Shown here: positions 5,444-35,555 of the stretch, in pieces | Numbering within the stretch: position 1 is the first letter of the stretch | How the letters are laid out: every line of letters begins with the position of its first letter | Virus record (IMG/VR): IMGVR_UViG_3300046000_007614 | Coordinates: 1-45,180 of that record | DNA length: 45,180 nt | Direction: 5' to 3' (one strand) | Source: a virus | Notes under the pieces: generated by a model | Databases searched by the model: none | Told to the model about the DNA's origin: nothing | Seen by the model: the letters and a program-made list of their open reading frames with translations, nothing else | Translations under genes and position numbers: made by a program

Positions 5444-5680
5444 ATGAAATCAACTGTAACTATTGAAGAAATTTATCAAAGATTAGTTGAAATGGATTCA
5501 GCTGGTGTTTTGGGAGGTAGTGCTGAGGGATTTAGTCCGAATAACCCTACAAGTAGTGATTTTTATGCTCCTGGTGACGCTAGAATAGCTACACCTGACA
5601 AGTATATACGAACAAGGTCGGGTGTTTTACAACGTAAACGCAAAATTAAGCGTAAGACGAAACGTAAGAGTAAGAAATAA
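5444..5680 (+). CDS. Small basic protein with a capsid-like GDAR motif
   Basis: 78-aa protein of unknown function. The N-terminus contains IEE (residues 7-9), which fits the (I/L)-x-E prohead-protease pattern. The middle reads DFYAPGDARIA (39-49), closely resembling DTYASGDARLP (88-98) of the major capsid protein in this window. The C-terminus is strongly basic (QRKRKIKRKTKRKSKK), suggesting nucleic-acid binding. It is preceded by an exact late promoter, so it is likely made late and may be a virion or DNA-binding protein; that role is inferred. Its stop overlaps the next start as TAATG. Confidence 0.75.
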   Translation: MKSTVTIEEIYQRLVEMDSAGVLGGSAEGFSPNNPTSSDFYAPGDARIATPDKYIRTRSGVLQRKRKIKRKTKRKSKK

Positions 5681-6114
5681 TGGACTTAGGTCACTGGATC
5701 ACCCTTGTAAATACAGCAGACGGTAATATACCGTATGGTTTTATATATAAAATTACATGCTATACTAACTCTAAGTCATATATTGGTAAAAAACAATGTA
5801 AAACTATTTTTAAACGTAAGCCATTAAAAGGTAAGCGCAATAAAAGACACGAAGAACGTGAAACAGACTGGAAAACATATACATCCTCTTCACGAGAGCT
5901 TAATGAAGATATAATTACATACGGAAAAGACAATTTTAAATTTGAGATTTTGCGTTTCTGTAAATCAAAATTTGAGTTATCTTATTTTGAGACTAAACTT
6001 CAATTTGAAGAAGAGGTATTACTACGAGATGACTATTACAACGGAATCATTAACCTACGGGTCGGAAAGCCTAAAAACGGAAATGCTTATAGATCACAAA
6101 TTACTGAGGTATAA
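5680..6114 (+). CDS. GIY-YIG endonuclease (SegE-like)
   Basis: 144-aa protein with a GIY-YIG nuclease-type N-terminus: GFIYKITCYTNSKSYIGKKQ at about residues 20-39 supplies the two short strands of the module. A basic stretch (KRKPLKGKRNKRHEER) and a conserved-looking E (FETKLQFEEEVLL) follow. Such proteins in T4-like phages are free-standing homing endonucleases of the Seg type. It overlaps the upstream gene by one base and probably overlaps the downstream gene. Whether it is active cannot be seen. Confidence 0.78.
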   Translation: MDLGHWITLVNTADGNIPYGFIYKITCYTNSKSYIGKKQCKTIFKRKPLKGKRNKRHEERETDWKTYTSSSRELNEDIITYGKDNFKFEILRFCKSKFELSYFETKLQFEEEVLLRDDYYNGIINLRVGKPKNGNAYRSQITEV

Positions 6115-9017: not shown

Positions 9018-10717
9018 TAGATTTTAAACATTATTACCATGTTATTGTTGAGGGAGGAAACGTGTTTAAGCAAAATCCTACTACACGTATACAGTTAGCT
9101 AATATCAAACCAACGGTCGATATGCTCTCAAATATTGTTGGTATTAATCTTAATAGATGCTTATTAGGAAGTACTGGTAAAAGAGAGTCTTCCGGAGATT
9201 TAGATATAGCTATTAATAGTCAAAAATATACAAAAGATGAGTTAACAGCAATATTAAAAAATTGGTGTGAAGAGCGAAATCTTAATCCTAAAGATTATAT
9301 TGCTAGATCAGGTATAAGTGTCCATTTCAGAACACCTATTAGAGGAGTTAATGAACAGTATGTACAAACTGATTTTATGTTTGTACATGACATTAAATTT
9401 GCTCAATTTGTTTTAGCTAATGATGAGGTATCTCCCTTTAAGGGAATGCATAGAGCTATTGTACTTTCAAATCTTGCTAAAAATATTAACTGTAGGTGGA
9501 GTGGTATAAACGGTATTACAGATAGAGCTACAGGAGCTGTAGTAGAGAGGTCGGACCCGGATAGAGTATCGCAAATTTTACTTGGTGATCCAAGTGCTAG
9601 AGAACGTAATCTTAAAACAATTCCTAATATTATGTCATCTTTATATAAGAGATACAAAGATGTTAATATTGTTCTAGCTATAGTAGCAGATGCAAGGTGG
9701 ACTATTTTAAAGGAAGGTATAGATATTGCTTCTTTACTACCACAGCAAAAATTAACAGAGAGTACAACAGCAGAAGGAACGAGAGTAGGTGTACAACATC
9801 TTTATTCAGAGTACAAATCAGATCAATACTCAATGAGTTTTGAGAATTTTGTTAATTTTATAAATGTATTAGATGATTCGAACGGTGTCATACAACCCGG
9901 TAATTCAAGCATATCTGAAAAAGCTGATGGTTTGAGTGTAAAGTTCGGTATCACACCAGAAAATAAGTTTTTCTTGCAAGGTAGTTATTCGGGCCCTGTA
10001 ACAGACGGTAATTTTACAGAAAAAATAAAACATGCACCTACACGAGAAGCATTTGAAGTTAATTTTAATAAGATTAAAAAAATAGTATTCAAGACATTAG
10101 ATCGCTACAAAAAAGATTTAGATCTAGACGGTATACGTGTTCAAGCTGAGTGGCTGTATTCGCCGTTCGCTTTAACGCGTGAGGATAACCCTAACGTAGT
10201 TTATTTTGTAGCTACAAATTATGAAAAGGATAAGTTGGGTGTATGGTCAACATTCCCTATTATTAATATAACAGATTATCAAGGTAACGAGTTACCAGGT
10301 AATATAAAATATGACATAACAAAGAGTCTAGTCGATTTATCTACTAAGGATGTAAAGTTTCTTCCTTTAGATATAGAAGTATTTAATCCTATTAATTTAT
10401 CGAACGAAATGAACTTAGCTGAACAAGAGTTGAATAATTTTTATTCGCAATACCCCAACTATGCTGAGATTTTAAATAACCCTTCAAGAAAGCAAGACGA
10501 TCAACGTGAGAAAAAGGCATTAAGGCAGCATATAACTAAAGTATTACTTCCTATACAGAAGAGAATGCACTTAAAGATCTTAGATGAACTTAATAAATTA
10601 GCTGGTAGTCTCGGTGAGTATGAAGGCCTTGTAATTAAACTTAAGGGATCTGATGGTAACCCGTTTATCTTTAAAGTCATATCACCTACATTTCATAAAA
10701 ACAAAGGAAGAATATGA
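9014..10717 (+). CDS. Nucleotidyltransferase-ligase fusion protein
   Basis: 567-aa protein that appears to join two enzyme domains. N-terminal: a polymerase-beta-type nucleotidyltransferase, with GSTGKRESSGDLDIA (residues 52-66) and a third acidic residue in VQTDFMFV (D120). C-terminal: a covalent nucleotidyltransferase (ATP-dependent DNA/RNA ligase fold), with motif I EKADG (nucleophile K303), a motif III-like VQAEWLY (E379), motif IV EGLVIK (537-542) and motif V FKVISP (K554). The first residues, MIDFKHYYHVIVEGG, include I-V-E (11-13), a possible capsid-targeting signal. Substrate is unknown; RNA or DNA end modification or repair is likely. Coupled by ATGA overlaps to both neighbours. Confidence 0.78.
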   Translation: MIDFKHYYHVIVEGGNVFKQNPTTRIQLANIKPTVDMLSNIVGINLNRCLLGSTGKRESSGDLDIAINSQKYTKDELTAILKNWCEERNLNPKDYIARSGISVHFRTPIRGVNEQYVQTDFMFVHDIKFAQFVLANDEVSPFKGMHRAIVLSNLAKNINCRWSGINGITDRATGAVVERSDPDRVSQILLGDPSARERNLKTIPNIMSSLYKRYKDVNIVLAIVADARWTILKEGIDIASLLPQQKLTESTTAEGTRVGVQHLYSEYKSDQYSMSFENFVNFINVLDDSNGVIQPGNSSISEKADGLSVKFGITPENKFFLQGSYSGPVTDGNFTEKIKHAPTREAFEVNFNKIKKIVFKTLDRYKKDLDLDGIRVQAEWLYSPFALTREDNPNVVYFVATNYEKDKLGVWSTFPIINITDYQGNELPGNIKYDITKSLVDLSTKDVKFLPLDIEVFNPINLSNEMNLAEQELNNFYSQYPNYAEILNNPSRKQDDQREKKALRQHITKVLLPIQKRMHLKILDELNKLAGSLGEYEGLVIKLKGSDGNPFIFKVISPTFHKNKGRI

Positions 10718-11256
10718 TTAATTTTAAACAATTTCTCGAACAACATCAAATAGAAGAAACTGTAGCAGTTTTTCCTGGAGGATTTAAACCACCTACTAAG
10801 GGTCATTTTTTAGCATTTCAAGAACTCTTACAAAATGCCAGTAGAGGTGTTGTATTTATAGGTACTAATATACGTGATGGTATTGATCAAGACATGTCAT
10901 ATCAGATATGGTCTATATACGCACCGTATCTTCCTAAGCCTGTTAGAATAGAGAAAAGTATGGGATCACCAGTTAAATCTACCTATGATTTAGCTAAAGA
11001 GTTTCCGTATACAAAAATTATTGTAGGGGCTGGTTCAAAAGAAAAAGATACGAGATTTAACTCTTTTGAAAAAAATCCAGATACTTACCCTAATGTTAGT
11101 ATTAGTCGTATTGATATGCAATCAGGTGGTATTAACGGTACAGATGTTAGAGTGAAATTAATAAATAAGGATCCAGATGCTGTAAATTATTTTGTACCTC
11201 AACAAATAAAAGAAACAGATAAAGAAAGAATAAAGAGTATCCTAGGTATAGCATAA
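10714..11256 (+). CDS. Cytidylyltransferase/NMNAT-like nucleotidyltransferase
   Basis: 180-aa HxGH-class nucleotidyltransferase: VAVFPGGFKPPTKGH carries the T-x-G-H signature (28-31), and INGTDVR (140-146) matches the position of the ISxTxxR motif. Relatives transfer AMP or CMP to phosphate acceptors such as nicotinamide mononucleotide, pantetheine phosphate or glycerol phosphate; the acceptor here cannot be told. The N-terminus MINFKQFLEQHQIEE shows I-E-E (13-15), a candidate prohead-protease site. It overlaps the ligase-like gene by ATGA, and its TAA stop lies inside the next late promoter. Confidence 0.82.
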   Translation: MINFKQFLEQHQIEETVAVFPGGFKPPTKGHFLAFQELLQNASRGVVFIGTNIRDGIDQDMSYQIWSIYAPYLPKPVRIEKSMGSPVKSTYDLAKEFPYTKIIVGAGSKEKDTRFNSFEKNPDTYPNVSISRIDMQSGGINGTDVRVKLINKDPDAVNYFVPQQIKETDKERIKSILGIA

Positions 11257-12691: not shown

Positions 12692-13387
12692 TTACTTTCT
12701 GGAAGCCATATCAATGAACTTATAAAGTTCTGTACGTGTCTTTTCATCAGCGAGGAAATCACCTGACAGCTTAGATGTAATCATAAAGCATCCATCATGT
12801 CTTACTCCACGATTACAAGCGCATGTATGTTGAGCTTTGAGTACAACAGCTACACCTAGATTACCTTCACAAGCGACGTTAACTGCGTCATGAATCTGCA
12901 CACTCAACCCCTCCTGAATTTGCGGACGTCTTGCGTAAAACTCAACAATACGATTAAGCTTACTAAGACCGATAACCTTACCTTCTGGGCTCGGTATATA
13001 CGCTACATGAGCAACACCAGAAAAAGCTAAGTGATGATGGGAACAAAGTGATTTAACTGGAATATTGCACTGTGCAACAATACCGTCATAACCATTATTC
13101 GGAAATGCAGTGACATTAGGCTGATTATCATAACAGCCGGTTGCAATATCATTAACGAAAGCCTTAGCGACTCGCATTGGAGTATTATCCGAGTTAGGAT
13201 CATTTCTCCAGTCAAATCCAAGAGCATCCATGTATTTTTCATAAGCCTTAGCAGCTCGTTTAATAATAGCTTGCTTTTCCTTTTCTGTACGGGGAGCATT
13301 ACCGTTAGCATATGGTAGCTTAACGATATCTCCAATTTCGGTATTTTCAGAATCATCCATAATCAGATTATAATATCGTATATTCAT
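12692..13387 (-). CDS. folE: GTP cyclohydrolase I (FolE)
   Basis: Converts GTP to dihydroneopterin triphosphate, the first step toward folates and 7-deazaguanines. In phages carrying queD and queE, as here, it usually feeds preQ0 synthesis. The 231-aa product has the zinc and catalytic residues in [12 protein letters not shown] (C115, H117, H118) and [11 protein letters not shown] (C189), plus the fold's [19 protein letters not shown] core. An alternative Met (residue 10) would shorten the N-terminus slightly. It is divergent from the gene at 13410, with 22 bases between. Confidence 0.95.
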
Positions 13388-14277: not shown

Positions 14278-14919
14278 ATGAAACCTGTTTTTCAGTCAAC
14301 AAAAGTAATGGAGCTTGGCTCCTGTGCATTTAGACAATGGCGTGCATCTCATTCACATTGTCGTTTTCTTCATGGATATCAGCTAAAAGCTAAACTATGG
14401 TTTAGTTGTTCATCCTTAGATGATAAGGGGTGGGCAGTAGATTTTGGAGGATTAAAAGAGCTTAAGGCTACACTTAATAATCTTTTTGATCATACTACTA
14501 CCATTGCAGCAGATGATCCATCACTAGATATTTTCAAAGATCTTGATAGTCGTGGACTTATTCAGCTTCGTATTATGGATAAGGGTGTAGGTATTGAGCG
14601 TGCAGCTGAGACTGTATTTGAACTTGCAGATAAACATGTACGTAGTCTTACTGACGGTCGGTGCTGGGTTAATAAGGTTGAAGTCTTTGAACATGAGGAT
14701 AATTCTGCTGTATATACAGAGTCTAATAGTGCTGTAGAACAAGAGACAATCAAGACAACATATAGTTTTAATGCAGAAGCAGATTTACAACCCGCTGTAA
14801 CGACCCCCGTTGAGACAGTAACTCAACAGCAGTCCGCTCCAAATAGAGGAGCTGCTGTTGGTAATGGAGTTTCACAAGGAATGAGTAATCCCTTTGCAGG
14901 TACATCATGGGGTGCTTAA
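14278..14919 (+). CDS. queD: QueD-like 6-carboxytetrahydropterin synthase, with extra tail
   Basis: Second enzyme of the preQ0 pathway, acting on the FolE product. The pattern CAFRQWRASHSHCRFLHGYQL carries the catalytic-type Cys (C28) and zinc-binding histidines (H27, H32), but the usual HGH is HGY (Y34), so one canonical zinc ligand appears replaced. The segment AVDFGGLKELK and the C-terminal VEVFEHEDNSA also fit. After about residue 150 a low-complexity Gln/Gly/Pro tail ending SNPFAGTSWGA is added. Given the altered ligand, it could be a phage 6-PTPS paralogue with a changed activity. It ends overlapping the convergent phoH gene by 4 bases. Confidence 0.83.
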   Translation: MKPVFQSTKVMELGSCAFRQWRASHSHCRFLHGYQLKAKLWFSCSSLDDKGWAVDFGGLKELKATLNNLFDHTTTIAADDPSLDIFKDLDSRGLIQLRIMDKGVGIERAAETVFELADKHVRSLTDGRCWVNKVEVFEHEDNSAVYTESNSAVEQETIKTTYSFNAEADLQPAVTTPVETVTQQQSAPNRGAAVGNGVSQGMSNPFAGTSWGA

Positions 14920-15700: not shown

Positions 15701-16489
15701 ATGTCTTATTTTATAATTAATATAATTATGAGTATCGATTGTGATAAAGAAACATTATTTCTCTCTAGCGACAAAGTCTTCTATACGATTGAAGGGGAGG
15801 GAGCGTTTGTTGGGAAACCTTCTGTTTTTATGAGGCTCGCTAGTTGTAACTTAACTTGTGCTGCATTTATTTCTGAAGATTCACCTAATGGCTGCGACTC
15901 GTATATTTCGTGGTCAGTAAAAAATAAAATGACCTTTAATGAAATCTTTGTGTTACTTGAAACAGGTAATCATATTAATCATCTTAGAGAAGGTGCAATT
16001 TTTAAGCTTACAGGAGGTGAGCCTCTTGTATCTGGTAAGCAACTTATTAAGTTTATTGAGGCTTTTGTGATAAAGTATCAGTTCTTACCTCAAATAGATT
16101 TTGAAACAAATGCAACTATTATGCCTGATCCTAGATGGGTAACAGAATTCAAAGCTACGTTTACTACCTCACCTAAGCTAACTACAAACGGCGATCCGGA
16201 AGAAAAAACATATAAACCTGAAGTTCTCAAATGGCATAAGGAAAATGGATCTGGTTTTAAGTTTGTTATTACATGTTCAGAAGATATTGATGAAATCTGG
16301 CGTAAATATGTCTTAGATGGTAATGGAATTAACGTACCTCTAAAGCGTATTTGGTTTATGCCTTGTTGTGGATCACGTAATGAGCATATCGAAAGAGCAC
16401 CGGCTGTTGTTGAATATGCTAAGGCAATGTGTGTTAATTTTAGTCCTAGACTACATCTACTTGTGTGGGACAAAGCGTTATCTGTTTAA
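15701..16489 (+). CDS. queE: QueE-like 7-carboxy-7-deazaguanine synthase (radical SAM)
   Basis: Radical SAM enzyme converting 6-carboxytetrahydropterin to 7-carboxy-7-deazaguanine. The iron-sulfur cysteines fall in ASCNLTC (C49, C53) and NGCDSY (C65), so spacing is C-x3-C-x11-C rather than the common C-x3-C-x2-C; QueE homologues with an inserted cluster loop are known. FYTIEGEGAFVG and the SAM motif TGGEPL support the family. The start may instead be the ATG at 15728 (MSIDCDKE), which lies closer to the conserved region. QueC, needed to reach preQ0, is not in this window. Confidence 0.9.
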   Translation: MSYFIINIIMSIDCDKETLFLSSDKVFYTIEGEGAFVGKPSVFMRLASCNLTCAAFISEDSPNGCDSYISWSVKNKMTFNEIFVLLETGNHINHLREGAIFKLTGGEPLVSGKQLIKFIEAFVIKYQFLPQIDFETNATIMPDPRWVTEFKATFTTSPKLTTNGDPEEKTYKPEVLKWHKENGSGFKFVITCSEDIDEIWRKYVLDGNGINVPLKRIWFMPCCGSRNEHIERAPAVVEYAKAMCVNFSPRLHLLVWDKALSV

Positions 16490-17088
16490 TGAAAAGTAAA
16501 ATACTAGTATTAAATAAATACTACTTCCCTATTGCCGTAGAAGATATTGAAAGAACCTTTGGTAATATATTTTCAAAATCTGTAATTCCGCTTGATATTA
16601 GTTATGAAACTACAGATGAAAATAAAATTAATCAGGAGGTTATAGATTACTTTGTACCTATCCCGAGTGTAAAAGAATGGTTAGAACTACCTATAAGACC
16701 GTTTGACGAATATATTCAAACAGCCCGTGGACCTATTCGTATTCCATCCGTGGTAGTATGTGCTCGATATGATAAAATCGTATATAATCGTGTATCATTT
16801 CCTACCAAACAAAATATTCTTAAACGCGATAATTTTACATGTGTATACACAGGTAAAAAACTTTCTAAAGACGATCTTAGTGTTGACCATATTATACCTA
16901 AAAGCAGAGGCGGTACTGATACATGGGAAAATATGGTTTGCTGTTGTCGGTTAACCAATTCACGAAAAGCATCTCTTACCCCCGAACAAGCTGGGTTAAA
17001 GCTTAAATATAAGCCTTATAACCCAAATAGGGGGTTATCTTTTGATATTTACAAGGATGAATGGGCTTCGTTCTTGAAAAATATGTAA
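16489..17088 (+). CDS. HNH endonuclease
   Basis: 199-aa protein with an HNH module near the C-terminus: NFTCVYTGKKL, then SVDHIIPKSRGGTDTWENMVCCC, giving Cys pairs and the D-H...N arrangement. The N-terminal half (LNKYYFPIAVEDIERTFG) is typical of McrA-like HNH proteins found next to phage and bacterial genes. The start ATG overlaps the queE stop as TAATG; an upstream GTG is not needed. It may be a homing nuclease or a processing/packaging nuclease. Confidence 0.88.
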   Translation: MKSKILVLNKYYFPIAVEDIERTFGNIFSKSVIPLDISYETTDENKINQEVIDYFVPIPSVKEWLELPIRPFDEYIQTARGPIRIPSVVVCARYDKIVYNRVSFPTKQNILKRDNFTCVYTGKKLSKDDLSVDHIIPKSRGGTDTWENMVCCCRLTNSRKASLTPEQAGLKLKYKPYNPNRGLSFDIYKDEWASFLKNM

Positions 17089-18541: not shown

Positions 18542-19384
18542 ATGAGCGATGTAAGAGGTAAGGTAGGCGTTGGTATAATTACGTGTAATCGACCCGACTA
18601 CCTACGTGGATTACTAGATACATTAATTAAGTGTAAGACTTCTATAGATAAACTGGTTATTATTAATGACGGCTCCCCTTTAGAAAATTTTAAATTACCA
18701 TTCGGAGAGTGGGTAAATAACGAAGCTAATATAGGTGTAGGTAAATCAAAAAATAAAGCTATGCAGCATCTCTTAGATAAGGGTTGCGATTATATTTTTA
18801 TAATTGAAGATGATATGCTCATTTTAGATCCTACTATTTTTGATAGATATATTGAAGCTCATAAAGCTAGCGGTATACATCATTTTAACTATGGTCCTGG
18901 TTCACCATTCAATCGTAAGCAATCAATACAGAATTTCGATCTACACAATAGACATTTACTAGATCAACATACAGAACCAAATCCTAAGCTCATTATAGAC
19001 TACGGGGATATAAAGGTATCCCTATTTGAACATACAGTCGCTATGTTTTCTTTCTTTACCAAAGAGGTACTGGAGAAGGTAGGGTTTATTGATGACGATT
19101 TCTTTAATGCATGGGAGCATGTTGATCATACATATCGAATTATTAAAGCAGGTTACCACCCACCATTTTGGTGGTTTGCAGATTTACACGATAGTCACAA
19201 ATATCTAACTGAAGCGCCTGATGCTATTAATAATTCATCTATTGCTAACGATAATGAACAATGGCATAAAAATGTATACGGTGGTAGAGAAATTTATAAA
19301 CAAAAGCACGGACATTACCCTAATGAACCTCCGCATGTTACAAAGGAGCAAGTTATACAAATAATTAAACAACTTAAAAAATGA
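18542..19384 (+). CDS. GT2-type glycosyltransferase
   Basis: 280-aa GT-A-fold enzyme opening the sugar cassette. VGIITCNRPDYLRGLL and VIINDGSP are the nucleotide-binding start of GT2 enzymes, and IIEDDM (E89-D90-D91) is the DxD-type metal/sugar-nucleotide motif. The later EHVDHTYRIIKAGY fits the acceptor region. Donor and acceptor are unknown. No late-promoter motif lies before it. The next gene starts within its stop (ATGA), so the three first transferases form one translational unit. Confidence 0.87.
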   Translation: MSDVRGKVGVGIITCNRPDYLRGLLDTLIKCKTSIDKLVIINDGSPLENFKLPFGEWVNNEANIGVGKSKNKAMQHLLDKGCDYIFIIEDDMLILDPTIFDRYIEAHKASGIHHFNYGPGSPFNRKQSIQNFDLHNRHLLDQHTEPNPKLIIDYGDIKVSLFEHTVAMFSFFTKEVLEKVGFIDDDFFNAWEHVDHTYRIIKAGYHPPFWWFADLHDSHKYLTEAPDAINNSSIANDNEQWHKNVYGGREIYKQKHGHYPNEPPHVTKEQVIQIIKQLKK

Positions 19385-20127
19385 AAATCGCTATTTTAGT
19401 ACCAACACGAGAAAGGATGAATAATAGACTTACGCTATTATTCTCGATATTAACAACAGTTAATGATATTAATAACATTACCGTATATTATGGTGTTGAT
19501 AAAGATGATCCAACTCTTGAAACAATAAAAAAAGTATCAACCGCAATCCCCTGCTTAAAAGTTATAGAGATTGAAAATGAAGGAAAATTTCTCGGTCTAG
19601 GTAAACTATGGAATATACTAACAGACGAATCTACAGAAGATATTATATCTATGATTGGCGACGATATGGTCTTTAAAACCAAAGACTGGGACCTCGAAAT
19701 CCTAAAAGAGTTTAAAGATGCACCTCTTGATAATATTAAAGCTGTTCACTGTAATGATGACTGTCATGGTGCTAAGCTAGCTGTCAACCTCTTTTGCCAT
19801 AGAAAATATGCAGAAGTGTTAGGCGGGTTTATGAGAGAAGAATTTAAAATTAATTGGGTTGATCAATGGTTACATCAGTTATTTAGTGCTTTTGATAGAC
19901 TGGTATATCGAGGTGATATTATGATTGAACATAGACACTGGGTTCTTGGTAAAAGTGCTCATGATAAAACAGCAGAACGTATGGCTATTGCTGATGTTAA
20001 TAAAATAAGTGATAAGCTCTGGTATTCTTTAAAGGATAAAAGAGTAGAGGATGTAAAAAAACTAGCTGCATACCTTAATGCTACTCCGGATTGGACAAAA
20101 GTAGATACAGACGATATAACATTATGA
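19381..20127 (+). CDS. GT-A fold glycosyltransferase
   Basis: 248-aa protein beginning MKIAILVPTRERMN, with a GT2-like start, ENEGKFLGLGKLWN, and the DxD-like MIGDDM (D94-D95). A later HRHWVLGKSAHDKTAER supplies conserved-looking His and Arg residues. It probably uses a nucleotide sugar; specificity cannot be told. Coupled by 4-base ATGA overlaps to the genes before and after. Confidence 0.83.
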   Translation: MKIAILVPTRERMNNRLTLLFSILTTVNDINNITVYYGVDKDDPTLETIKKVSTAIPCLKVIEIENEGKFLGLGKLWNILTDESTEDIISMIGDDMVFKTKDWDLEILKEFKDAPLDNIKAVHCNDDCHGAKLAVNLFCHRKYAEVLGGFMREEFKINWVDQWLHQLFSAFDRLVYRGDIMIEHRHWVLGKSAHDKTAERMAIADVNKISDKLWYSLKDKRVEDVKKLAAYLNATPDWTKVDTDDITL

Positions 20128-20972
20128 TAGTACAAATGACAATGACCAGAAATGAATGCTTTTTAATAAAAGAAATGCTGCCTATTTGGTCAAAATATGT
20201 TGATGGTTTTGTTTTTTTGAGTGATAATTCTACCGATGATACAGTTGAATATCTTAAAGCAAATAAAGAAAAGTATAATATACTTGAGATTATTGAAGCA
20301 AAAACAGCTGATGATATGGGTGAATGGGAAACAAGTATGAGGCAGCAGCTATTTGATGCAGCATATAGTTACTCCAATAAAGTTATATGTTTAGATACTG
20401 ATGAGTATCTTGACGGTAAAGCTACAAAAGCGGAGCTTGAAGATATATTAGATAAGAATTTAGATACAGTCTTTATGTGTCAGTGGATTCAATATACAGG
20501 TAAAAATAAACGCCGTGTTGATTCTTTTTGGAGAGATTCGTTTCATGATAGAGTAGGTAATTTTATACCAAATTCTAAATTTGGTAAGACTTTTAGTCAT
20601 TCCTCTCATATGCCTTCTGTTTCAAAAGGTACTCGTATCGATCCTTCGGATCTTTTTATTGCACACTTGCAGTGGTTAGATAAACGATGGGTAGGTATAA
20701 AGCAGTATTATTGGAAGGTTTGGGATTACGTTAATAATCTTGAACATGGTGTTGGTATTATTAACGTAGGTGATTATGATATTTCTGTTAATAACTTTGC
20801 ATGGCTGTATGAAGATTTTGACGTAACTCTTAAAGTAAGGGAAGATATATACTCAACTGAAAACGTTAAAGATAATTATAAACTTTTATACATTGTAGAG
20901 CAAACTAAAAAACATAACATACCTAATCTCGGTGATTGGAGGATGGGTATACATGATTTTGCAATAAAATGA
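20124..20972 (+). CDS. GT2/GT92-like glycosyltransferase
   Basis: 282-aa product from the ATG at 20124 (MIVQMTMTRNE), which overlaps the previous stop as ATGA; an in-frame upstream start is not needed. MTRNECFLIKEMLPIW, then VDGFVFLSDNSTDDT and LDTDEYLD (D91, D93) follow the pattern of DUF23/GT92-type and related GT2 transferases. The C-terminal WLDKRWVGIKQYYWK is a likely acceptor-binding part. It closes the first group of three transferases. Confidence 0.83.
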   Translation: MIVQMTMTRNECFLIKEMLPIWSKYVDGFVFLSDNSTDDTVEYLKANKEKYNILEIIEAKTADDMGEWETSMRQQLFDAAYSYSNKVICLDTDEYLDGKATKAELEDILDKNLDTVFMCQWIQYTGKNKRRVDSFWRDSFHDRVGNFIPNSKFGKTFSHSSHMPSVSKGTRIDPSDLFIAHLQWLDKRWVGIKQYYWKVWDYVNNLEHGVGIINVGDYDISVNNFAWLYEDFDVTLKVREDIYSTENVKDNYKLLYIVEQTKKHNIPNLGDWRMGIHDFAIK

Positions 20973-21010
20973 GTTGATACCAATATAAAACATATTATAA
21001 TTAATTTGTA

Positions 21011-22330
21011 ATGTCGAAAAAAGAACAAATCTTAGCCCTCGTTAAAGAATATATCCACGAACAACAGGCAGCAAAGCAATGGACAGCAGGTAAAGACTGG
21101 GTTCAATATGCTGGTCCACTTTTTGATGATAATGAATATACTTCATCTATTGAAACGCTACTTGAAGGTTGGTTGGTTCTAGGTAAAAAAGGTATTAGCT
21201 TTGAAAATAAGTTTCCAAAGCTTGTAGGTAAAAATTACGGTATCTTAACTAATAGCGGTAGCAGTTCTAACTTACTGATGATGTCTGCTCTCACATCTAA
21301 GCGATTATATAATCTTCAAAAAGGTACTAAAGTAATTACTCCAATCGCAGGTTTTCCTACTACTATTAATCCTATTTTTCAACTGGGGTTTGAACCGTTG
21401 TTTGTAGATATTGATCTCGATACTCTTAACTTAAACCTTAAACAAGTTGAAGAGCAAGCCAAAAAAGGAGCAAAAGCAATTACATTTGCACACGTGTTAG
21501 GTAATCCTCCCAACATGGATGAATTGATGAGAATTGTAGAACAATACGAGCTTATTCTTCTCGAGGATTGTTGCGACGCTCTCGGCTCAACATACGACGG
21601 TAAACCTCTCGGTTCATTCGGTGAGTTTGCTAGCTGTTCTTTTTACCCTGCTCATCATATTACAATGGGTGAAGGTGGTTTTGTTGCTTGTAAAACTCAT
21701 CAGCAAGAAATTGTAACACGTAGTTTTAGAGAATGGGGTCGAGGTTGTTACTGTATTGGAATGAAGGCAGGGTTGCTTAAAAATGGTACATGTGGTAGTA
21801 GATTTGATAATTGGTTGCCATCCTTACCTGATGAAATTTTTGATCATAAGTATGTATATGACGAGATTGGCTATAACTTAAAACCTATTGAAGTTCAAGC
21901 AGCAATGGGTCTTGAGCAAATTAAAAAACTACCTTATATCAATGAAAGACGTAAGCATAATCATAAGCGTTTATGTGAAATATTTTCTAAATATGAAGAG
22001 TATTTTATTATACCTAAAGCTACTGAAAAGAGTGACCCGAGTTGGTTTGCTTTTGCAGTAACAATTAGAGATAATGCTAACTTTAAACGCCGTGATATTA
22101 TTAATCACTTTGAAAGTAATAAAATTCAAACACGACCATACTTCGCAGGTAATATTATGTTACAGCCAGCGTACGAAGGCTTAATGGATGTAAATGAGGT
22201 TATTAAGAACTACCCTAATGCTAGAAAAGTAACAACAGATACCTTCTTCCTCGGAACCAGTCCAGTTATTACAGATGATCAATTAGATTATATTGAGGAA
22301 ATTTTAACCAGCTTTTTTACTACAAAATGA
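21011..22330 (+). CDS. rfbH: RfbH-type CDP-4-keto-6-deoxyglucose 3-dehydrase
   Basis: 439-aa PLP-fold (DegT/DnrJ/EryC1 superfamily) enzyme that removes the C3 hydroxyl of a 4-keto-6-deoxy sugar nucleotide. Two features single out this subfamily. The aminotransferase lysine is His in SFYPAHHITMGEGG (H215). The iron-sulfur cysteines are present: C188, C246, C248 and C261, spaced C-x57-C-x1-C-x12-C against C-x57-C-x1-C-x7-C in the Yersinia E1 enzyme. E1 needs an iron-sulfur flavin reductase (RfbI/AscD), not seen in this window; the host might supply it. Product: a 3,6-dideoxy sugar intermediate. Confidence 0.92.
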   Translation: MSKKEQILALVKEYIHEQQAAKQWTAGKDWVQYAGPLFDDNEYTSSIETLLEGWLVLGKKGISFENKFPKLVGKNYGILTNSGSSSNLLMMSALTSKRLYNLQKGTKVITPIAGFPTTINPIFQLGFEPLFVDIDLDTLNLNLKQVEEQAKKGAKAITFAHVLGNPPNMDELMRIVEQYELILLEDCCDALGSTYDGKPLGSFGEFASCSFYPAHHITMGEGGFVACKTHQQEIVTRSFREWGRGCYCIGMKAGLLKNGTCGSRFDNWLPSLPDEIFDHKYVYDEIGYNLKPIEVQAAMGLEQIKKLPYINERRKHNHKRLCEIFSKYEEYFIIPKATEKSDPSWFAFAVTIRDNANFKRRDIINHFESNKIQTRPYFAGNIMLQPAYEGLMDVNEVIKNYPNARKVTTDTFFLGTSPVITDDQLDYIEEILTSFFTTK

Positions 22331-23001
22331 AAACTCTAATACTAACTGGCAGTGATCAAAGTATGATAGATGTACTAGATTTAACACTACCTTCAAAGCA
22401 AGAATATTGTAAAAAGCATAATTATGATCTACTGGCCCTTAGATCTTTTGCTGCAGATACGGAATGTAATTTTAATTCGTCACATGTAGGATTTTTACGT
22501 GCTGTGATGGCCTTTAGGCAGTTAAGATTTTACGACAACGTAATGTGGATAGATGCTGACTCTATTATTACAAATATGGATTATAAAATTGAAGATTTTA
22601 TACAAAACGAAGCGTGCTTTATTGCATCGTATGATTGGATGCACTTTAATAGTTTTAGTACAGGTAATTTTATAATTCGTAAAACTAATGATACACAAAA
22701 TTTGTTTAACAGATTTCTTGCTGTGAGTCAGTATAGACTAAATGATATTATGGCTGAGCAAGGTACATTAAATCAGATCTATAATGAACTAGATAGCAAT
22801 AAGACAATGTTTAATATATTACCACATAAATTTTTAAATAGTGTACCAGAATTTCTTGTTGATACAGGTACATGGCGTAACGATAATAACCGATCAGGTA
22901 TAATTAAACCGTGGACGCCTGATTGCTTTTTAGCGCATTTAACAGGTCTCTCTACAGCAGAACGTGTTAATATACTATCTAATAATAAATTAAATCTTTA
23001 A
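22327..23001 (+). CDS. Galactosyltransferase-like protein (GT34-like)
   Basis: 224-aa protein coupled by ATGA overlap to the RfbH gene. It resembles the GMA12/MNN10 type: LPSKQEYCKKHNYDLL near the N-terminus, MWIDADSIITN (D76-A-D78) as the DxD motif, and STGNFIIRKT. The length is short for the family, but phage members are compact. It probably transfers a hexose within the cassette's product. Confidence 0.78.
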   Translation: MKTLILTGSDQSMIDVLDLTLPSKQEYCKKHNYDLLALRSFAADTECNFNSSHVGFLRAVMAFRQLRFYDNVMWIDADSIITNMDYKIEDFIQNEACFIASYDWMHFNSFSTGNFIIRKTNDTQNLFNRFLAVSQYRLNDIMAEQGTLNQIYNELDSNKTMFNILPHKFLNSVPEFLVDTGTWRNDNNRSGIIKPWTPDCFLAHLTGLSTAERVNILSNNKLNL

Positions 23002-23003
23002 TA

Positions 23004-23750
23004 ATGAACTATAAATTTGTACAGTATGTTAGCTCGGGATTTTTCTCCGATTTTAATGTTATAATTGGTTGTCTGGATTTTATTATAAAACATAATATTA
23101 CCAATTTTAATTTTGTGTGGAATAACGTATACTATCAGAACAACAATGAAAATTTATTCCATAAATTTTTCTTTAAAACACCTGAATATAATAGTTACGA
23201 TCACGAATTAACAGCAATATCAATTGGCGCTACATACTATCAACCGTTTAATGAGAGAGAGAAATTTATTAACTCCAATAATATTCTAGCACATTTTAAT
23301 TACTTTAGTAACCCTATATACATACAGTTAAAAAATTTATGCGCTAAAGCAGATAACTGCCTCGGTGTGCATGTAAGAGGTACAGATCACTGGCAGCACG
23401 GTCCATTAATTAATTTAGATGAATATTTTAAACATATTGACGATAAAATAGAATTAGGTATATATACTAAAATATTCCTTGCTACTGATGAAGCAAGATA
23501 CGTTGAAAGTTTTCAACAAAGGTATGGAGATAAGGTTATTATTAACGATAATATAACACGTAGTAATACGTCGATTGCTATTCACAGTAGTGGGGTTGAT
23601 AACAAAGAAAAGCTAATTACTGATGTTATGTTGGATGCTATCTCACTTGCGCAGTGTGAGGAAATTATCATTACATCAAGTAATGTTTCTGCCTATACTC
23701 TAGCTATCAATCCGCATATAAAATACACATTTATAGATTCACCACATTGA
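23004..23750 (+). CDS. Fucosyltransferase-like protein
   Basis: 248-aa protein with GVHVRGTDHW (121-130), the H-x-R-x-T-D peptide that binds the GDP part of the donor in alpha-1,2/alpha-1,6 fucosyltransferases and NodZ-like enzymes. A typical IFLATDEARYVESF follows, then a C-terminal ITSSNVSAYTLA segment. A GDP-linked deoxyhexose donor is therefore likely, though the cassette carries no obvious GDP-fucose pathway beyond the SDR at 25896. Two bases separate it from the previous stop. Confidence 0.8.
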   Translation: MNYKFVQYVSSGFFSDFNVIIGCLDFIIKHNITNFNFVWNNVYYQNNNENLFHKFFFKTPEYNSYDHELTAISIGATYYQPFNEREKFINSNNILAHFNYFSNPIYIQLKNLCAKADNCLGVHVRGTDHWQHGPLINLDEYFKHIDDKIELGIYTKIFLATDEARYVESFQQRYGDKVIINDNITRSNTSIAIHSSGVDNKEKLITDVMLDAISLAQCEEIIITSSNVSAYTLAINPHIKYTFIDSPH

Positions 23751-23780
23751 AAAATTAAAATACGTATATAAATTATTGAT

Positions 23781-24728
23781 ATGAAAAAAGTTGTATACGT
23801 GACTGGTTGTCTCGGGTTTATCGGATCATATGTCACAAGAGCTTGCCTCATGAGAGGGTGGTATGTTAAGGGTGTAGATAAAATGACATACGCGGCTAAT
23901 AAATCCTTACTAGAAGAATTTAAACAACACTCTAATTTTTCATTTGTTAATTGCGATCTGAATGAATTAAAATTTCTCTATGAGTGTGATTATATTATAA
24001 ATACAGCAGCTGAGACGCATGTAGGTAATTCAATCGCTAACAGTGATGAGTTTGTTAGTTCGAACATCACCGGTGTACATAATATTCTCGAGTTAATTAA
24101 AAACTATAGACAAGAGACCAATAAGAAACCAGTACTGTTACATTTTAGTACGGATGAAGTTTATGGTGATATCATTGAAGGTGCTCACACGGAGGTAGAT
24201 TTGCTAAAACCTAGCAACCCCTATTCAGCTACTAAAGCTGCTGCAGATATGTTAGTACTAGCATGGAACAGAACATATAATATACCTTATGTTATCGTAA
24301 GACCAACTAATAATTACGGTATAGGGCAGTATGTAGAGAAGTTAATTCCTAAAGCGTGTAAATATATAGAACTTAATAAGAAACTTCCATTACACAACAA
24401 CGGTACACCTATACGTAACTGGCTACATGCTCGTGATACAGCAGAAGCAATTATCACAATTATAGAGAGTGGTGTAAGGGACGAGATATTTAACATTAAC
24501 GGCGATTACGAGCAGAGTAACTATCAGACATTTGATAAGATAGTTAAGCTCTATGAAAATAAAAAGACTGAAGATTATATTGATTTCTCATATAATAGAG
24601 AAGGTCAAGATCTTAGATACGCTCTCGATGATAGTAAATTACGCTCGCTAGGATGGTCACCTTCAGCAGATTTTGATGTTGAACTTCCCATGATTGTAGA
24701 TTATTATAAGGAAAAGTATATATGGTAA
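23781..24728 (+). CDS. NDP-glucose 4,6-dehydratase-like SDR
   Basis: 315-aa extended short-chain dehydrogenase of the RmlB/CDP-glucose-dehydratase type. NAD-binding TGCLGFIGS (8-16); TYAAN and AAETHVGNSI resemble RmlB; the catalytic STDEVYGD (T124, D125, E126) and Y148-x3-K152 are present. It would turn an NDP-glucose into the 4-keto-6-deoxy form, the substrate of the RfbH-type enzyme encoded two genes earlier. It could be an epimerase; the T-D-E triad favours a dehydratase. It overlaps the next gene by 7 bases. Confidence 0.88.
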   Translation: MKKVVYVTGCLGFIGSYVTRACLMRGWYVKGVDKMTYAANKSLLEEFKQHSNFSFVNCDLNELKFLYECDYIINTAAETHVGNSIANSDEFVSSNITGVHNILELIKNYRQETNKKPVLLHFSTDEVYGDIIEGAHTEVDLLKPSNPYSATKAAADMLVLAWNRTYNIPYVIVRPTNNYGIGQYVEKLIPKACKYIELNKKLPLHNNGTPIRNWLHARDTAEAIITIIESGVRDEIFNINGDYEQSNYQTFDKIVKLYENKKTEDYIDFSYNREGQDLRYALDDSKLRSLGWSPSADFDVELPMIVDYYKEKYIW

Positions 24729-25351
24729 CTGTTGAAGAATTAATTAAGTTTGAACGTGAAATAGGTGATACGTTTGATAGCGGTGCGATTAGGGCTCCTG
24801 TCCATTTATACCATGGTAACGAATCTATTATGATTGATATTTTTAAAGATATCAATATAAATGATGATTGGGTATGTTGTACGTGGCGTAATCATTATCA
24901 AGGATTATTAAAAGGTATACCAACAGAGGTTCTTAAAGAAAATATTGTCAGCGGTAAATCAATGGTAGTAACACTCCCAGAGTATAAATTTATTTGTAGC
25001 TCAATTGTAGGTGGTATTCCATCTATTGCAGCTGGTATTGCTTTATCTATTAAGTTACAAAACAAACCTAACAAGGTATGGTGCTGGGTTGGAGATATGA
25101 GTGCTGAAACAGGTGCATTTCATGAAGCATACAAATATAGTGTTAATCATAATCTACCTATAACATTTATTGTAGAGGATAATAAAAAATCTGTATGTAC
25201 TCCTACAGCTCCTATATGGGGTAGAGAGACACCATACTATCTTAATGAAAAATATAAAGGTGGTATAACAAGACAGCAAAACCTTATTTACTATCAATAC
25301 GACAATACAATGTACCCGCATGCAGGAGCTGGTAAACGTGTACAATTTTAA
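24722..25351 (+). CDS. Thiamine-diphosphate enzyme, E1-alpha-like, shortened
   Basis: 209-aa protein like the thiamine-diphosphate-binding half of pyruvate/acetoin dehydrogenase E1-alpha or transketolase N-half. The cofactor motif is GDMSAETGAFHEAYKY (G124-D125) ending with N154 in VEDNKKS. LPITFIVEDN is typical. It is much shorter than usual E1-alpha (over 300 aa), ending soon after the cofactor domain. It is followed 6 bases later by its probable beta partner. Placed in a sugar cassette, it may add a two-carbon unit to a keto sugar, as proposed for other PDH-like sugar enzymes; that is inference. Confidence 0.83.
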   Translation: MVTVEELIKFEREIGDTFDSGAIRAPVHLYHGNESIMIDIFKDININDDWVCCTWRNHYQGLLKGIPTEVLKENIVSGKSMVVTLPEYKFICSSIVGGIPSIAAGIALSIKLQNKPNKVWCWVGDMSAETGAFHEAYKYSVNHNLPITFIVEDNKKSVCTPTAPIWGRETPYYLNEKYKGGITRQQNLIYYQYDNTMYPHAGAGKRVQF

Positions 25352-25356
25352 TATAT

Positions 25357-25893
25357 ATGAAATATTTTAATGAACTACAAAAAGCAATGACATTGCTTGC
25401 TGAGCATCCTGATACAATCTTTATAGGTCAAGCTGTTGAATATGAAGGTACAGGACTTTATGAATCTCTAGCACATCTACCTTCACATAAAAAAATGGAA
25501 TTTCCTGTTGCCGAATATTTACAATCAGGTATTGTAAATGGTATGGCTATAGAAGGGATGATACCAGTATCTATTTTTCCAAGATGGAACTTTTTGCTGA
25601 TGGGTACAGATCAGATTGTAAACCACCTCGATAAATTTGCTTCAATGTCGCGAGGTAAATGTACACCAAAAGTTATAATACGTGTAGCGGTAGGAAGTGA
25701 AAGACCTGTCGATCCACAAGATCAACATAAAGGTAATTTTGCAGAAGCCTTTAGACATATGTGCAAAACACTCGATATAATCGAGCTTAATGAACCAGAG
25801 GATATTATACCTGCCTATGAAAAGGCACTAGACAGAGTTGATGGTAGGAGTACTATGCTAGTTGAGTTTGGTGATTATAATAAGGAAAAATAA
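25357..25893 (+). CDS. Thiamine-diphosphate enzyme, E1-beta/pyrimidine-domain-like
   Basis: 178-aa protein matching the pyrimidine-binding domain of E1-beta or the transketolase middle domain. Visible: FIGQAVEYEG, then FPVAEYLQSGIVNGMAIEGM, in which E53 corresponds to the glutamate that activates the cofactor, and GTDQIVNHLDKF. The C-terminal transketolase-C domain of a normal E1-beta (about 320 aa) is missing, so the pair is a minimal split enzyme. Lies between the alpha-like gene and an SDR, 2 bases from the latter. Confidence 0.83.
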   Translation: MKYFNELQKAMTLLAEHPDTIFIGQAVEYEGTGLYESLAHLPSHKKMEFPVAEYLQSGIVNGMAIEGMIPVSIFPRWNFLLMGTDQIVNHLDKFASMSRGKCTPKVIIRVAVGSERPVDPQDQHKGNFAEAFRHMCKTLDIIELNEPEDIIPAYEKALDRVDGRSTMLVEFGDYNKEK

Positions 25894-25895
25894 AA

Positions 25896-26666
25896 ATGAA
25901 TATACTCATTACCGGCAAGACAGGGTACTTATCCAAAGCACTTGTACAATTCCTATCTACCGATCATAATATTACATGTATTGGGAGACAGGACTTATTG
26001 TTAACTGATAAAGCCGCTGTCAATAAATGGTTTGAAGGTAAACATTTTGATATTGTATTACATACAGCTATTACAGGAGGAAACAGACTAATACCTGAAA
26101 CGGATAATATATTATCTGATAATATAAAAATGTTTTTTAATCTTTTATATCAAAAAGATAAGTATAACAAGTTTATAAGCTTTGGTTCAATAGCAGAGTA
26201 TGATTTATATAGTAGTGTTTATGGCTTGAGTAAGAATATTATAGCACAATATATTAAAGATGAACCTAAGTTCTATAATCTAAGAATTTGCGGGTTATTT
26301 GATCACAATGATATAGATACGAGATTTATAAAAAACAATATTAATAATTATAGGTTATATAGAGATCAAGTTATATATAAGGATAAATATATGGATTTTA
26401 TATATATGGAAGATCTACTTTCTATAGTAAGATTTTATATTGATAACACTAACCCACCAAAACTTACCGATTGTGTTTATAAGGAAAAATACTGGTTAAG
26501 TGAAATAGCGGTAATGATTAATAAATTAGACATACATAAAGTGCGCATTCAAATAAACGATACAGTTAAATGTACACCGTATATCGGTACTGAATGTAAA
26601 CTACCTATTACGTTCTTAGGATTACAGGAAGGTATTAAACGAACATATCTTAACCTTAAAGCTTGA
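25896..26666 (+). CDS. NDP-sugar reductase/epimerase-like SDR
   Basis: 256-aa SDR: NAD(P)-binding ITGKTGYLSKAL (5-16), a Ser-containing FGSIAEYD, and the catalytic Y109-x3-K113 in VYGLSK. Similar to RmlD/GDP-fucose-synthase-type reductases. It would fit the last step, reduction of the keto sugar. It ends the sugar cassette, followed by a 30-base gap. Preceded by an AGGAAAA Shine-Dalgarno-like run. Confidence 0.8.
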   Translation: MNILITGKTGYLSKALVQFLSTDHNITCIGRQDLLLTDKAAVNKWFEGKHFDIVLHTAITGGNRLIPETDNILSDNIKMFFNLLYQKDKYNKFISFGSIAEYDLYSSVYGLSKNIIAQYIKDEPKFYNLRICGLFDHNDIDTRFIKNNINNYRLYRDQVIYKDKYMDFIYMEDLLSIVRFYIDNTNPPKLTDCVYKEKYWLSEIAVMINKLDIHKVRIQINDTVKCTPYIGTECKLPITFLGLQEGIKRTYLNLKA

Positions 26667-26696: not shown

Positions 26697-27278
26697 ATGA
26701 TTATTGAACATCCGATTTATAATGGGAATTTAATTCACTCCCGCTTTGCATACCGCTTCTTTAATAAAGAAGTGTCACCTTACGGTAATATTGTTGCATT
26801 TAGAGCGCCAATGTTCGTTAGTGATAACCTAATCGATCTTGAAGATTCGCTTACTAAAGATTATATTTTTAGTGACGACGCTATTAACTTCTGTTGGGAG
26901 ATTCCTAATCTTTGCCCTATTGGTGCTGTAGCTTTTCAACGTCTACTTAATACAGCTATTGCAAACGTATTGTCACATATTATTCAAAGACCTATTCAGA
27001 TGAAAGGTGATGATCTTATGGTTCATGATAAGTTTCTTGGCTCAGATAAAACTGAACGCGAGGTAGGTAAGGTAAGTGTATCTATTACATATTCAAAGGA
27101 TAATGTAGCGATTGGTCATACAGGCATTAATGTTAATGCTGGTAAGAAAGCTCCAGGCTTTGCATATAGCTCTAATCTTAGTGATGAACAAATCGAAGTA
27201 TTTATTGCTAAGGTAGTTAACTACTTCAATAATGAAATTAAGGATCAACAAATTGCGACGACAAAAGTGATTGTATGA
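26697..27278 (+). CDS. DUF366-like conserved protein
   Basis: 193-aa protein. The start, with an HSRFAYRFF segment followed by NIVAFRAPMFV and LIDLEDSL, has the layout of DUF366 (PF04017-type) proteins, whose function is unknown to me. The family call is from memory of the pattern and is tentative. A later FCWEIPNLCPIGAVAFQRL looks conserved. Overlaps the next gene by 4 bases (ATGA). Confidence 0.72.
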   Translation: MIIEHPIYNGNLIHSRFAYRFFNKEVSPYGNIVAFRAPMFVSDNLIDLEDSLTKDYIFSDDAINFCWEIPNLCPIGAVAFQRLLNTAIANVLSHIIQRPIQMKGDDLMVHDKFLGSDKTEREVGKVSVSITYSKDNVAIGHTGINVNAGKKAPGFAYSSNLSDEQIEVFIAKVVNYFNNEIKDQQIATTKVIV

Positions 27279-34558: not shown

Positions 34559-34607
34559 TATTATATTATTAGTAGATAAGAACTAAGTGGATTACTGTCA
34601 CCGTAGC

Positions 34608-34614
34608 ATAAATA
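34608..34614 (+). promoter_or_regulatory. Late promoter ATAAATA, 5 bases before ATG 34620
   Basis: Preceded by C. The five-base spacer fixes the start of the homing-endonuclease-like gene at 34620 rather than the upstream in-frame ATG at 34587. Confidence 0.7.
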
Positions 34615-34619
34615 TATGT

Positions 34620-35555
34620 ATGGGTAAAAAGTATTTTCTTTTATTAAAACAACATACTGTGACAGGGTTAAAATATCTATGTTTTCACCACGGCACAAGG
34701 GATAATTGCTTTAAATATAAGGGATCAGGTACGTATTGGACTAGTCATTTATCAAAGCATGGGAATAGTATTAATACTATTATTCTTGAGATCAAGGATA
34801 CAAGAGAAGAGCTGGTTGAGTATGGATTAAAATATTCGAAGCTGTGGGATGTAGTTAAATCAACGGAATTTGCAAATCTTATTGATGAAGATTGTAATTC
34901 TACAAGCGCACCTCTACAGCGTGAAGATGTTCGTCTAAGACGAAATAAAGCGTTTAGTGATAGAGTTAGATTGCATGGCCAGACTGATAAAGAGAAAGCA
35001 AGAAATAAAAAAACATCAGTAATATTACAATCTACCGAGATACGAGAAAGAGCAGCTAATACGCTTAGAACAAGACTAAATACAGGTCACCGAACAGAAA
35101 AAGAACAACAAAAAGGAATAAATCAAAGTAATCGTATTAAAGAGTGTGGATTTACGGAAGCAGAGCTTAAAGCTCAAAAAGAAACAAGTTTACGTCAAGT
35201 TAGTAAAACAATGAAAGAGCGGCTTAACAATCCTGACTATATTGACTCACGTAAAGGCAAATCAGCAAAGGAAATATTTGGTGATACGTATAAAGGACCG
35301 TGGAATAAGGGTAAGACAGTAAATGAATTAAAGGGACAAGACTATATAGATCCGAGATGTAAACCGTTTACAATTACATCACATTTAGGTACATACAAAT
35401 ATAAAAATGAACGAGAATTTTTAACAGAGACAAAATTCTCACAACCAACACTAACAAAATTAAAACGTAACGGTAAATATGTAGTGAAGCGTCAATCTAA
35501 TACTCTGCATAATTTTAAGCATGGCGAAACAATTTTTTATAGCGAATTAAGATGA
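34620..35555 (+). CDS. Homing-endonuclease-like protein (GIY-YIG-related, Seg/Mob type)
   Basis: 311-aa product from ATG 34620. The N-terminal part, YFLLLKQHTVTGLKYLCFHHG followed by CFKYKGSGTYWTSHLSKHG, matches the atypical GIY-YIG module seen in free-standing homing endonucleases of T4-like phages. The long basic middle (RLRRNKAFSDRVRLHG, many Lys/Arg and repeated RxR/KxK patterns) resembles a NUMOD-like DNA-binding region, and the C-terminus (LTKLKRNGKYVVKRQ) a winged-helix-like end. It splits gp13 from gp4, and has its own late promoter. Its last codons overlap the gp4 start (ATGA). Confidence 0.78.
   Translation: MGKKYFLLLKQHTVTGLKYLCFHHGTRDNCFKYKGSGTYWTSHLSKHGNSINTIILEIKDTREELVEYGLKYSKLWDVVKSTEFANLIDEDCNSTSAPLQREDVRLRRNKAFSDRVRLHGQTDKEKARNKKTSVILQSTEIRERAANTLRTRLNTGHRTEKEQQKGINQSNRIKECGFTEAELKAQKETSLRQVSKTMKERLNNPDYIDSRKGKSAKEIFGDTYKGPWNKGKTVNELKGQDYIDPRCKPFTITSHLGTYKYKNEREFLTETKFSQPTLTKLKRNGKYVVKRQSNTLHNFKHGETIFYSELR

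Follow-up and report, generated by a model that had tools for sequence, protein, structure and literature searches.

Deoxysugars with a branched carbon skeleton have been described in a small number of O-antigens and antibiotics. In Yersinia O-antigens, yersiniose A is made by a pathway consisting of RfbF-G-H, YerE and a ketoreductase, and its main elements, a 4,6-dehydratase, the 3-dehydrase RfbH, a thiamine diphosphate (ThDP) dependent carboligase, a last reductase and a 3,6-dideoxy-4-keto sugar as the acceptor, are found or predicted again in the locus described here, a cassette of ten genes at positions 18542-26666 of the IMG/VR virus record IMGVR_UViG_3300046000_007614. The whole stretch of DNA that was analysed, 45,180 nucleotides long, is called the window below. 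A second group of described systems comprises AviB1/AviB2 (avilamycin), Pau11/Pau12 (paulomycin) and KbDH-alpha/beta, which like the enzyme of the window are encoded by two genes resembling E1 of pyruvate dehydrogenase (PDH), and which are proposed or have been shown to use pyruvate for placing a C2 unit on a keto sugar or an analogue thereof. Our analysis suggests that a branched 3,6-dideoxyhexose is quite probably synthesised and then transferred by the products of the cassette, the branch being due to a ThDP module which can be swapped among sister phages. This is supported at the sequence level by gene identities, intact active-site motifs, linkage and module swaps, and from these we infer each reaction, the C4 position, the pyruvate donor, deoxythymidine diphosphate (dTDP) as the nucleotide and the target.

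The ten open reading frames of the cassette are all open, run in the same direction and are tightly packed or overlapping:

18542..19384, plus strand: GT2-family glycosyltransferase (Pfam PF00535, 24.3 bits; phrog_2456, 7e-27)
19381..20127, plus strand: putative phage glycosyltransferase (phrog_14945, 8e-28; without Pfam match)
20091..20972, plus strand: putative GT2-like (Glyco_tranf_2_4-like) glycosyltransferase (PF13704, 25.9 bits, slightly below the cut-off of 27.5)
21011..22330, plus strand: RfbH/E1-type 3-dehydrase for nucleoside diphosphate (NDP)-4-keto-6-deoxyglucose (NF011936; E1 structure 3bcx)
22327..23001, plus strand: GT34 (GMA12/MNN10)-like glycosyltransferase (PF05637, 38.3 bits, above cut-off)
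23004..23750, plus strand: putative fucosyltransferase-like glycosyltransferase (PF19745 FUT8, 22.8 bits, below the cut-off of 27.6)
23781..24728, plus strand: RmlB-like NDP-glucose 4,6-dehydratase (TIGR01181, below equivalog cut-off)
24722..25351, plus strand: PDH-E1-alpha-like subunit with the ThDP (PP) domain, 209 amino acids (TKN; E1_dh PF00676, 54.3 bits)
25357..25893, plus strand: PDH-E1-beta-like pyrimidine-domain subunit, 178 amino acids (TKC; transketolase pyrimidine domain PF02779, 29.7 bits)
25896..26666, plus strand: extended short-chain dehydrogenase/reductase (SDR; Epimerase/RmlD-like), predicted ketoreductase (PF01370, 48 bits)

The original prediction, made from the letters alone, had described just such a set, and the family matches bear it out: a 4,6-dehydratase-like protein, RfbH, a two-gene ThDP enzyme, an SDR of the reductase type and five glycosyltransferase-like genes, two of these by weak matches. 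The glycosyltransferase gene at 20091, the real start of which probably lies slightly downstream of the listed TTG, is retained 5' of RfbH in many sister cassettes.

Viral contigs were collected by the E1-alpha-like protein (62 loci) and separately by RfbH alone (80 loci), open reading frames were called, proteins clustered and redundant contigs removed. The RfbH-sampled set was chosen independently of ThDP genes and kept the closest relatives of the window RfbH, and the counted contigs have at least 5 kb downstream. In this set a ThDP enzyme was found in 52 of 53 non-redundant contigs, the only exception being L127. Thirty one of the 52 carry a YerE-like enzyme, 12 the E1-like pair, eight a transketolase-type (TK-type) pair, and one contig has two types. 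The YerE-like enzyme is a chain of about 580 amino acids with three TPP domains, and its nearest match in the PDB is 8rph (1e-112), which is JanthE, a YerE-like carboligase accepting ketones (PMC12188165). The TK-type pair of the sister phages (c24/c25, about 204-212 plus 158 amino acids) is a split transketolase. The second PDB match of the YerE-like member was 5ahk, which we take to be PpYerE. All three types occupy the slot between the RmlB-like gene and the SDR gene, and a 2025 review (PMC12247030) lists exactly these three classes as the ThDP enzymes which form C-branched sugars or are proposed to do so. The PDH-alpha-like gene is followed by the PDH-beta-like gene in 55 of 55 non-redundant contigs, with the SDR gene coming next in 45 of the 55. 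This arrangement is far from chance. As a control, an unrelated RmlB was used to sample 20 viral loci; a ThDP enzyme was not seen in the examined stretch, which was limited by short contigs in about half of them.

A YerE-like query run against phage records retrieved nothing but proteins resembling acetolactate synthase, at about 27-33% identity, several of them annotated as ilvB or acetolactate synthase or lying in bacterial records, and no YerE from a cultured phage was found among these records. Two variants of the YerE-type cassettes were noted. In L090 (11977-12732) and L097/L098 the YerE-like enzyme is split, its C-terminal ThDP domain being a gene of its own of 252 amino acids. L075 (12892-14055) and L135 (12827-13984) contain an LdpA-like double 4Fe-4S protein, possibly an electron donor or involved in radical chemistry.

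The replacement of one ThDP type by another can be followed in pairs of closely related contigs. L024 and L122 have 86-90% DNA identity on either side of a replaced module, which is a 1.2 kb piece with the E1-like pair versus a 4.2 kb piece with HpcH/HpaI-type aldolase, SDR, AroB-like and YerE-like genes. L109 and L133 are 83% identical across 11 kb to the end of the RmlB gene, where the TK-type pair stands against a YerE module. For the window locus itself, both flanks of the E1-like pair can be aligned with L067 (YerE type) and L068 (TK type), at about 67-80%. On a tree of RfbH with 85 ingroup rows the three ThDP types require at least 18 switches, where 2 would be the fewest possible and shuffling gives 29 on average. 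Judged from these alignments and the tree, the modules are replaced repeatedly and a ThDP enzyme is retained in the slot. The ThDP gene pair as an exchangeable branch module drawn from three enzyme classes seems to be the stronger result. It is evenly balanced, in our view, whether aquatic T4-like and related phages join a fixed RmlB-RfbH-SDR core by recombination to any one of the three unrelated carboligases, with the YerE type carrying along its own genes for keto-acid synthesis, so that the same glycan would receive chemically different branched sugars in sister phages, in a manner resembling serotype variation. If true, this would be the first virus-encoded pathway to a C-branched sugar, and all three ThDP branching classes would for the first time be seen to serve a single slot. 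For the logic of dehydration, 3-deoxygenation, C-branching by ThDP and reduction, which had been predicted from the window alone, the linkage of RfbH to a ThDP enzyme and the interchange of three classes in one slot make a branched dideoxy sugar the best fit, and the place of the ThDP enzyme between dehydratase and SDR is in line with the predicted single pathway.

Sequence comparison makes the identity of 21011-22330 as a true RfbH secure. The protein exceeds the curated NCBIfam cut-off (NF011936, 478.6 bits versus 423) and matches structures of the 3-dehydrase E1 with 5e-108 or better (3bcx, E=3e-109). Aligned with 3bcx, a histidine replaces the lysine which would bind pyridoxal phosphate (SFYPAHHITMG), and the four cysteines of the [2Fe-2S] site are kept (EDCCD, GCYC, GTC; last gap five residues longer), in what is presumably the ligand pattern of RfbH/E1. 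In contigs with the PDH-E1-like pair and without a classical RfbH, the DegT gene, where visible, encodes either a short form resembling the 3-dehydrase E1 and lacking the cysteines (nearest PDB match E1, 7e-54) or a ColD-like form. Because histidine is found at the lysine position also here, these proteins likewise look like 3-dehydrases, and their assignment as aminotransferases, which would break the 3-deoxy link, was rejected for those checked. In six groups of such contigs a DegT gene was not seen within the stretch examined. Relatives in bacterial metagenome-assembled genomes, L146 (Parcubacteria) and L147 (Bacteroidales), have the same kind of 3-dehydrase-like partner.

The two ThDP subunits of the window resemble a two-subunit enzyme of the alphaKADH2/PDH-E1 type trimmed to its two catalytic domains. 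The alpha-like subunit (209 amino acids) matches profiles of PDH E1 alpha with 4e-16, and its structural model (pLDDT 89, pTM 0.88) has human PDH E1 alpha as top fold matches. The beta-like subunit (178 amino acids) agrees with PDH E1 beta in profile searches, and its model (pTM 0.81) matched E1 beta chains at TMq 0.71-0.78. Glutamate 53 (activating) and histidine 124 (active site) of the beta-like subunit are conserved in 76 of 76 homologues, and histidine 58, aspartate 125 and asparagine 154 of the alpha-like subunit are invariant in alignment A4, the roles of the active-site residues being inferred by alignment with human PDH E1. The beta-like subunit consists of the pyrimidine domain only, without the C-terminal transketolase domain. 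In true PDH E1 beta the C-terminal domain binds E2. The YerE type, a single chain with the N, M and C domains of TPP_enzyme, is seen in the sister-cassette cluster c8 and not in the window pair. The analogy to YerE drawn earlier was thus right as to the kind of pathway and wrong as to the enzyme in the window, since the pair is E1-like and resembles the AviB1/AviB2 and Pau11/Pau12 type. The adjacent SDR has RmlD (1vl0, 3e-17) as its nearest profile and an intact serine-tyrosine-lysine triad (serine 98 in 107 of 111, tyrosine 109 and lysine 113 in 110 of 111 sequences), and is predicted to be the ketoreductase of the branched product.

TIGR01181 is by far the best model for the 4,6-dehydratase (295.8 bits versus 72.9 for the CDP-glucose dehydratase model TIGR02622, CDP being cytidine diphosphate), the nearest structures are dTDP-glucose 4,6-dehydratases (2hun, 3e-66), and the translation holds the catalytic motifs, threonine-aspartate-glutamate in STDEVYG and YxxxK in YSATK. 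As the dehydratase is of the dTDP-glucose type, dTDP is probably the likelier nucleotide; of the two starting sugars considered originally, CDP- and dTDP-glucose, the former has become less likely.

In the proposed pathway the RmlB-like enzyme would dehydrate NDP-glucose of the host, probably dTDP-glucose, to the 4-keto-6-deoxy sugar, from which RfbH would take off the oxygen at C3, a host donor supplying the electrons. Pyruvate would then be decarboxylated by the two-gene E1-like enzyme, which would join the acetyl unit to the ketone at C4. Reduction of the side-chain ketone by the SDR would yield a 4-C-(1-hydroxyethyl) sugar like yersiniose, and glycosyltransferases of the phage would install this sugar in a glycan. 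Candidate targets are phage DNA, the virion and host glycans. Sister phages fill the same slot with a split transketolase or with a YerE-like enzyme and its own predicted genes for a keto-acid donor.

Several observations weigh against this pathway. The 4,6-dehydratase stays below the equivalog cut-off of TIGR01181 (295.8 versus 365.1 bits), the GDG motif of the ThDP pair reads GDM, and the E1-like subunits do not have the C-terminal parts of the known alphaKADH2 enzymes. An RfbI/E3-type reductase (NAD_binding_1, PF00175) was found in none of 48 related viral records, and a nucleotidyltransferase (RfbF/RmlA, PF00483), present in nine of the 48, was not found in the window, which is itself a fragment. 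With neither the activating enzyme nor the reductase encoded, the host would have to provide NDP-glucose and electrons, and probably does so. The ThDP modules are not strictly alternative, as about six of 105 contig groups carry the E1-like pair and a YerE-like gene together. Finally, a second, distant viral RfbH lineage (S-H68 type) has five loci without a nearby ThDP enzyme, so RfbH by itself does not imply branching. In the whole record of L191 a TPP_enzyme_C gene lies about 15 kb away from the sampled locus.

The order of the steps is one point where another reading has to be considered. For the nearest analogues with two subunits, AviB1/AviB2 and Pau11/Pau12, it is proposed that they work once the sugar has been transferred (PMC4425429), and branching in the phage might likewise occur on a keto-sugar already bound to the glycan, as proposed for eurekanate and paulomycose, instead of on the nucleotide sugar. 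We consider this rather unlikely, as in most contigs the ThDP genes stand immediately after the RmlB gene and ahead of the SDR gene, which suits a sequence of nucleotide-sugar reactions, and YerE acts on a CDP-sugar (PMC12247030).

The nature of the added unit can be approached by the gene content of the modules. A gene expected to make an alpha-keto acid is found between RmlB and SDR in 19 of 20 YerE-only modules, in none of 39 E1-only and in none of seven TK-only modules; the Fisher p of about 1e-15 for this split is indicative only, since the categories were set after viewing the data and the contigs are related. The donor-type genes encode HpcH/HpaI-type aldolase, ketopantoate hydroxymethyltransferase, NeuB-type synthase or HMGL/DmpG aldolase, some of them with acetaldehyde dehydrogenase. 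An assignment of c21/c34/c46 as HisF/HisH/WbpG from their sizes was rejected, as they are HpcH/HpaI-like, SDR and AroB-like. L104 (12759-14656), L113 and L092, all of the YerE type, carry an acylating acetaldehyde dehydrogenase/DmpG-like aldolase pair, expected to convert acetyl-CoA and pyruvate to 4-hydroxy-2-oxopentanoate. ErwE, a YerE-like enzyme, accepts 4-hydroxy-2-oxo acids, and the E1-like alphaKADH2 enzymes are restricted to C2 branches from pyruvate (PMC12247030). The gene content of the modules fits these reported donor rules and therefore suggests pyruvate as the donor for the window enzyme. That the window pair adds another unit, hydroxyacetyl or a longer chain, is conceivable because the TK-type modules of sister phages may use ketol donors; against the E1-like sequence and fold with conserved active-site histidines, the lack of donor-making genes in the E1-only modules and the reported specialisation of alphaKADH2 enzymes for C2 branches, we judge it unlikely.

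RfbH, the RmlB-like enzyme and the SDR would suffice for an ordinary unbranched 3,6-dideoxyhexose of the paratose/abequose type, the ThDP pair then acting apart from it on non-sugar substrates, for example in acetoin or acyl-carrier chemistry, and the S-H68-type lineage shows viral RfbH with no ThDP enzyme nearby. This appears improbable given that the RfbH lineage of the window is accompanied by a ThDP enzyme almost throughout, lodged between dehydratase and reductase, that whatever refills the slot always belongs to another ThDP class for which sugar branching is known or proposed, that E2/E3 dehydrogenase partner genes were not seen among the annotated cassette neighbours, and that the C-terminal domain of E1 beta is missing.

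The record is a fragment of a T4-like phage, with gp46/gp47-like, tail sheath stabiliser, portal, prohead protease and major capsid genes, the major capsid protein being 32-34% identical to its marine cyanophage counterparts. The whole cassette gave zero matches by megablast against 50,697 phage records, and no cultured phage corresponded to it at the DNA level. On one side it is bordered by a gene resembling thymidylate kinase together with a minus-strand gene of no assigned function, and on the opposite side by a DUF366 gene, which is seen again in about 15 related loci. A partial gene set for 7-deazaguanine (preQ0) surrounds it:

12692-13387, minus strand: GTP cyclohydrolase I (FolE)
14278-14919, plus strand: QueD/PTPS-like protein
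15701-16489, plus strand: QueE-like radical-SAM-type protein (by eye; without Pfam match)
26697-27278, plus strand: DUF366 protein

FolE, QueD and the QueE-like protein make modified guanines conceivable, but phage DNA, instead of a surface glycan, is an improbable target for the sugar or its glycosyltransferases, as the five glycosyltransferase-like proteins match no DNA-base glycosyltransferase family in Pfam and PHROG profile searches, the queuosine-type genes may serve tRNA, and no DNA transglycosylase was identified.

Elsewhere in the window, a protein of 781 amino acids with BspA-like 'MFxxCSSLxxVPLFNT' repeats (42299-44644, minus strand) adjoins the structural genes and is possibly an adhesin or fibre. 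An HNH endonuclease at 16465-17088 was confirmed by Pfam, and homing-endonuclease-like genes recognised by eye (5680-6114, 34587-35555, 39577-40344) are dispersed among the phage genes. Also by eye only, a protein of 567 amino acids with nucleotidyltransferase-like and ligase-like stretches (9014-10717, plus strand) and an adenylyltransferase-like protein (10714-11256, plus strand; 'FPGGFKPPTKGHF') were noted.

In literature searches no phage-encoded pathway to a branched sugar or a dideoxyhexose was found; rfbH is named in the viral papers found only as a stand-alone auxiliary gene, and the rare-sugar pathways of giant viruses are unbranched according to the review found. A phage cassette with the branching step swapped among three enzyme classes would show diversification of viral sugars at the level of the carbon skeleton. 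It would open the role of phage glycan clusters to experimental tests, and would yield minimal ThDP carboligases (209 plus 178 amino acids), which may be ketone-accepting enzymes of the kind in demand for biocatalysis.

Among described proteins, the closest in phages come from the cyanophages S-SM2 and P-TIM68; they are fused 'transketolase central region' proteins, the PP and pyrimidine domains of which are homologous to the window pair (about 40% identity) and which also stand in glycan gene clusters. Unlike the pair, the cyanophage protein is a single chain of 400 amino acids next to a zinc alcohol dehydrogenase and a sugar kinase, with no 3-dehydrase or RfbH neighbour. Loci of such fused proteins were L143 (12049-13194; P-TIM68), L144 (9983-11191; S-SM2), L159, L164 and L171 (Prochlorococcus). 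AzcB/AzcC, a ThDP alpha-imino acid decarboxylase (9u8q), has a minimal split pyrimidine-domain subunit of about 170 amino acids like the window, but the likeness is a fold match only (TMq about 0.6, 14% identity) and its reaction differs. The split-gene transketolases proposed for miharamycin and amipurimycin, the function of which is itself unproven (PMC12247030), belong to the class of the TK-type pair of sister phages and not to that of the window. The known alphaKADH2 subunits are full length (Pau11 325, Pau12 345 amino acids) and encoded in actinobacterial antibiotic clusters, whereas the trimmed phage subunits occur together with a 3-dehydrase. Compared to the yersiniose A pathway, finally, the window has a split E1-like enzyme in place of the single-chain YerE and a dehydratase of the dTDP type, is without RfbF and RfbI, and is phage-borne with its own glycosyltransferases, while sister phages do have YerE-like enzymes.

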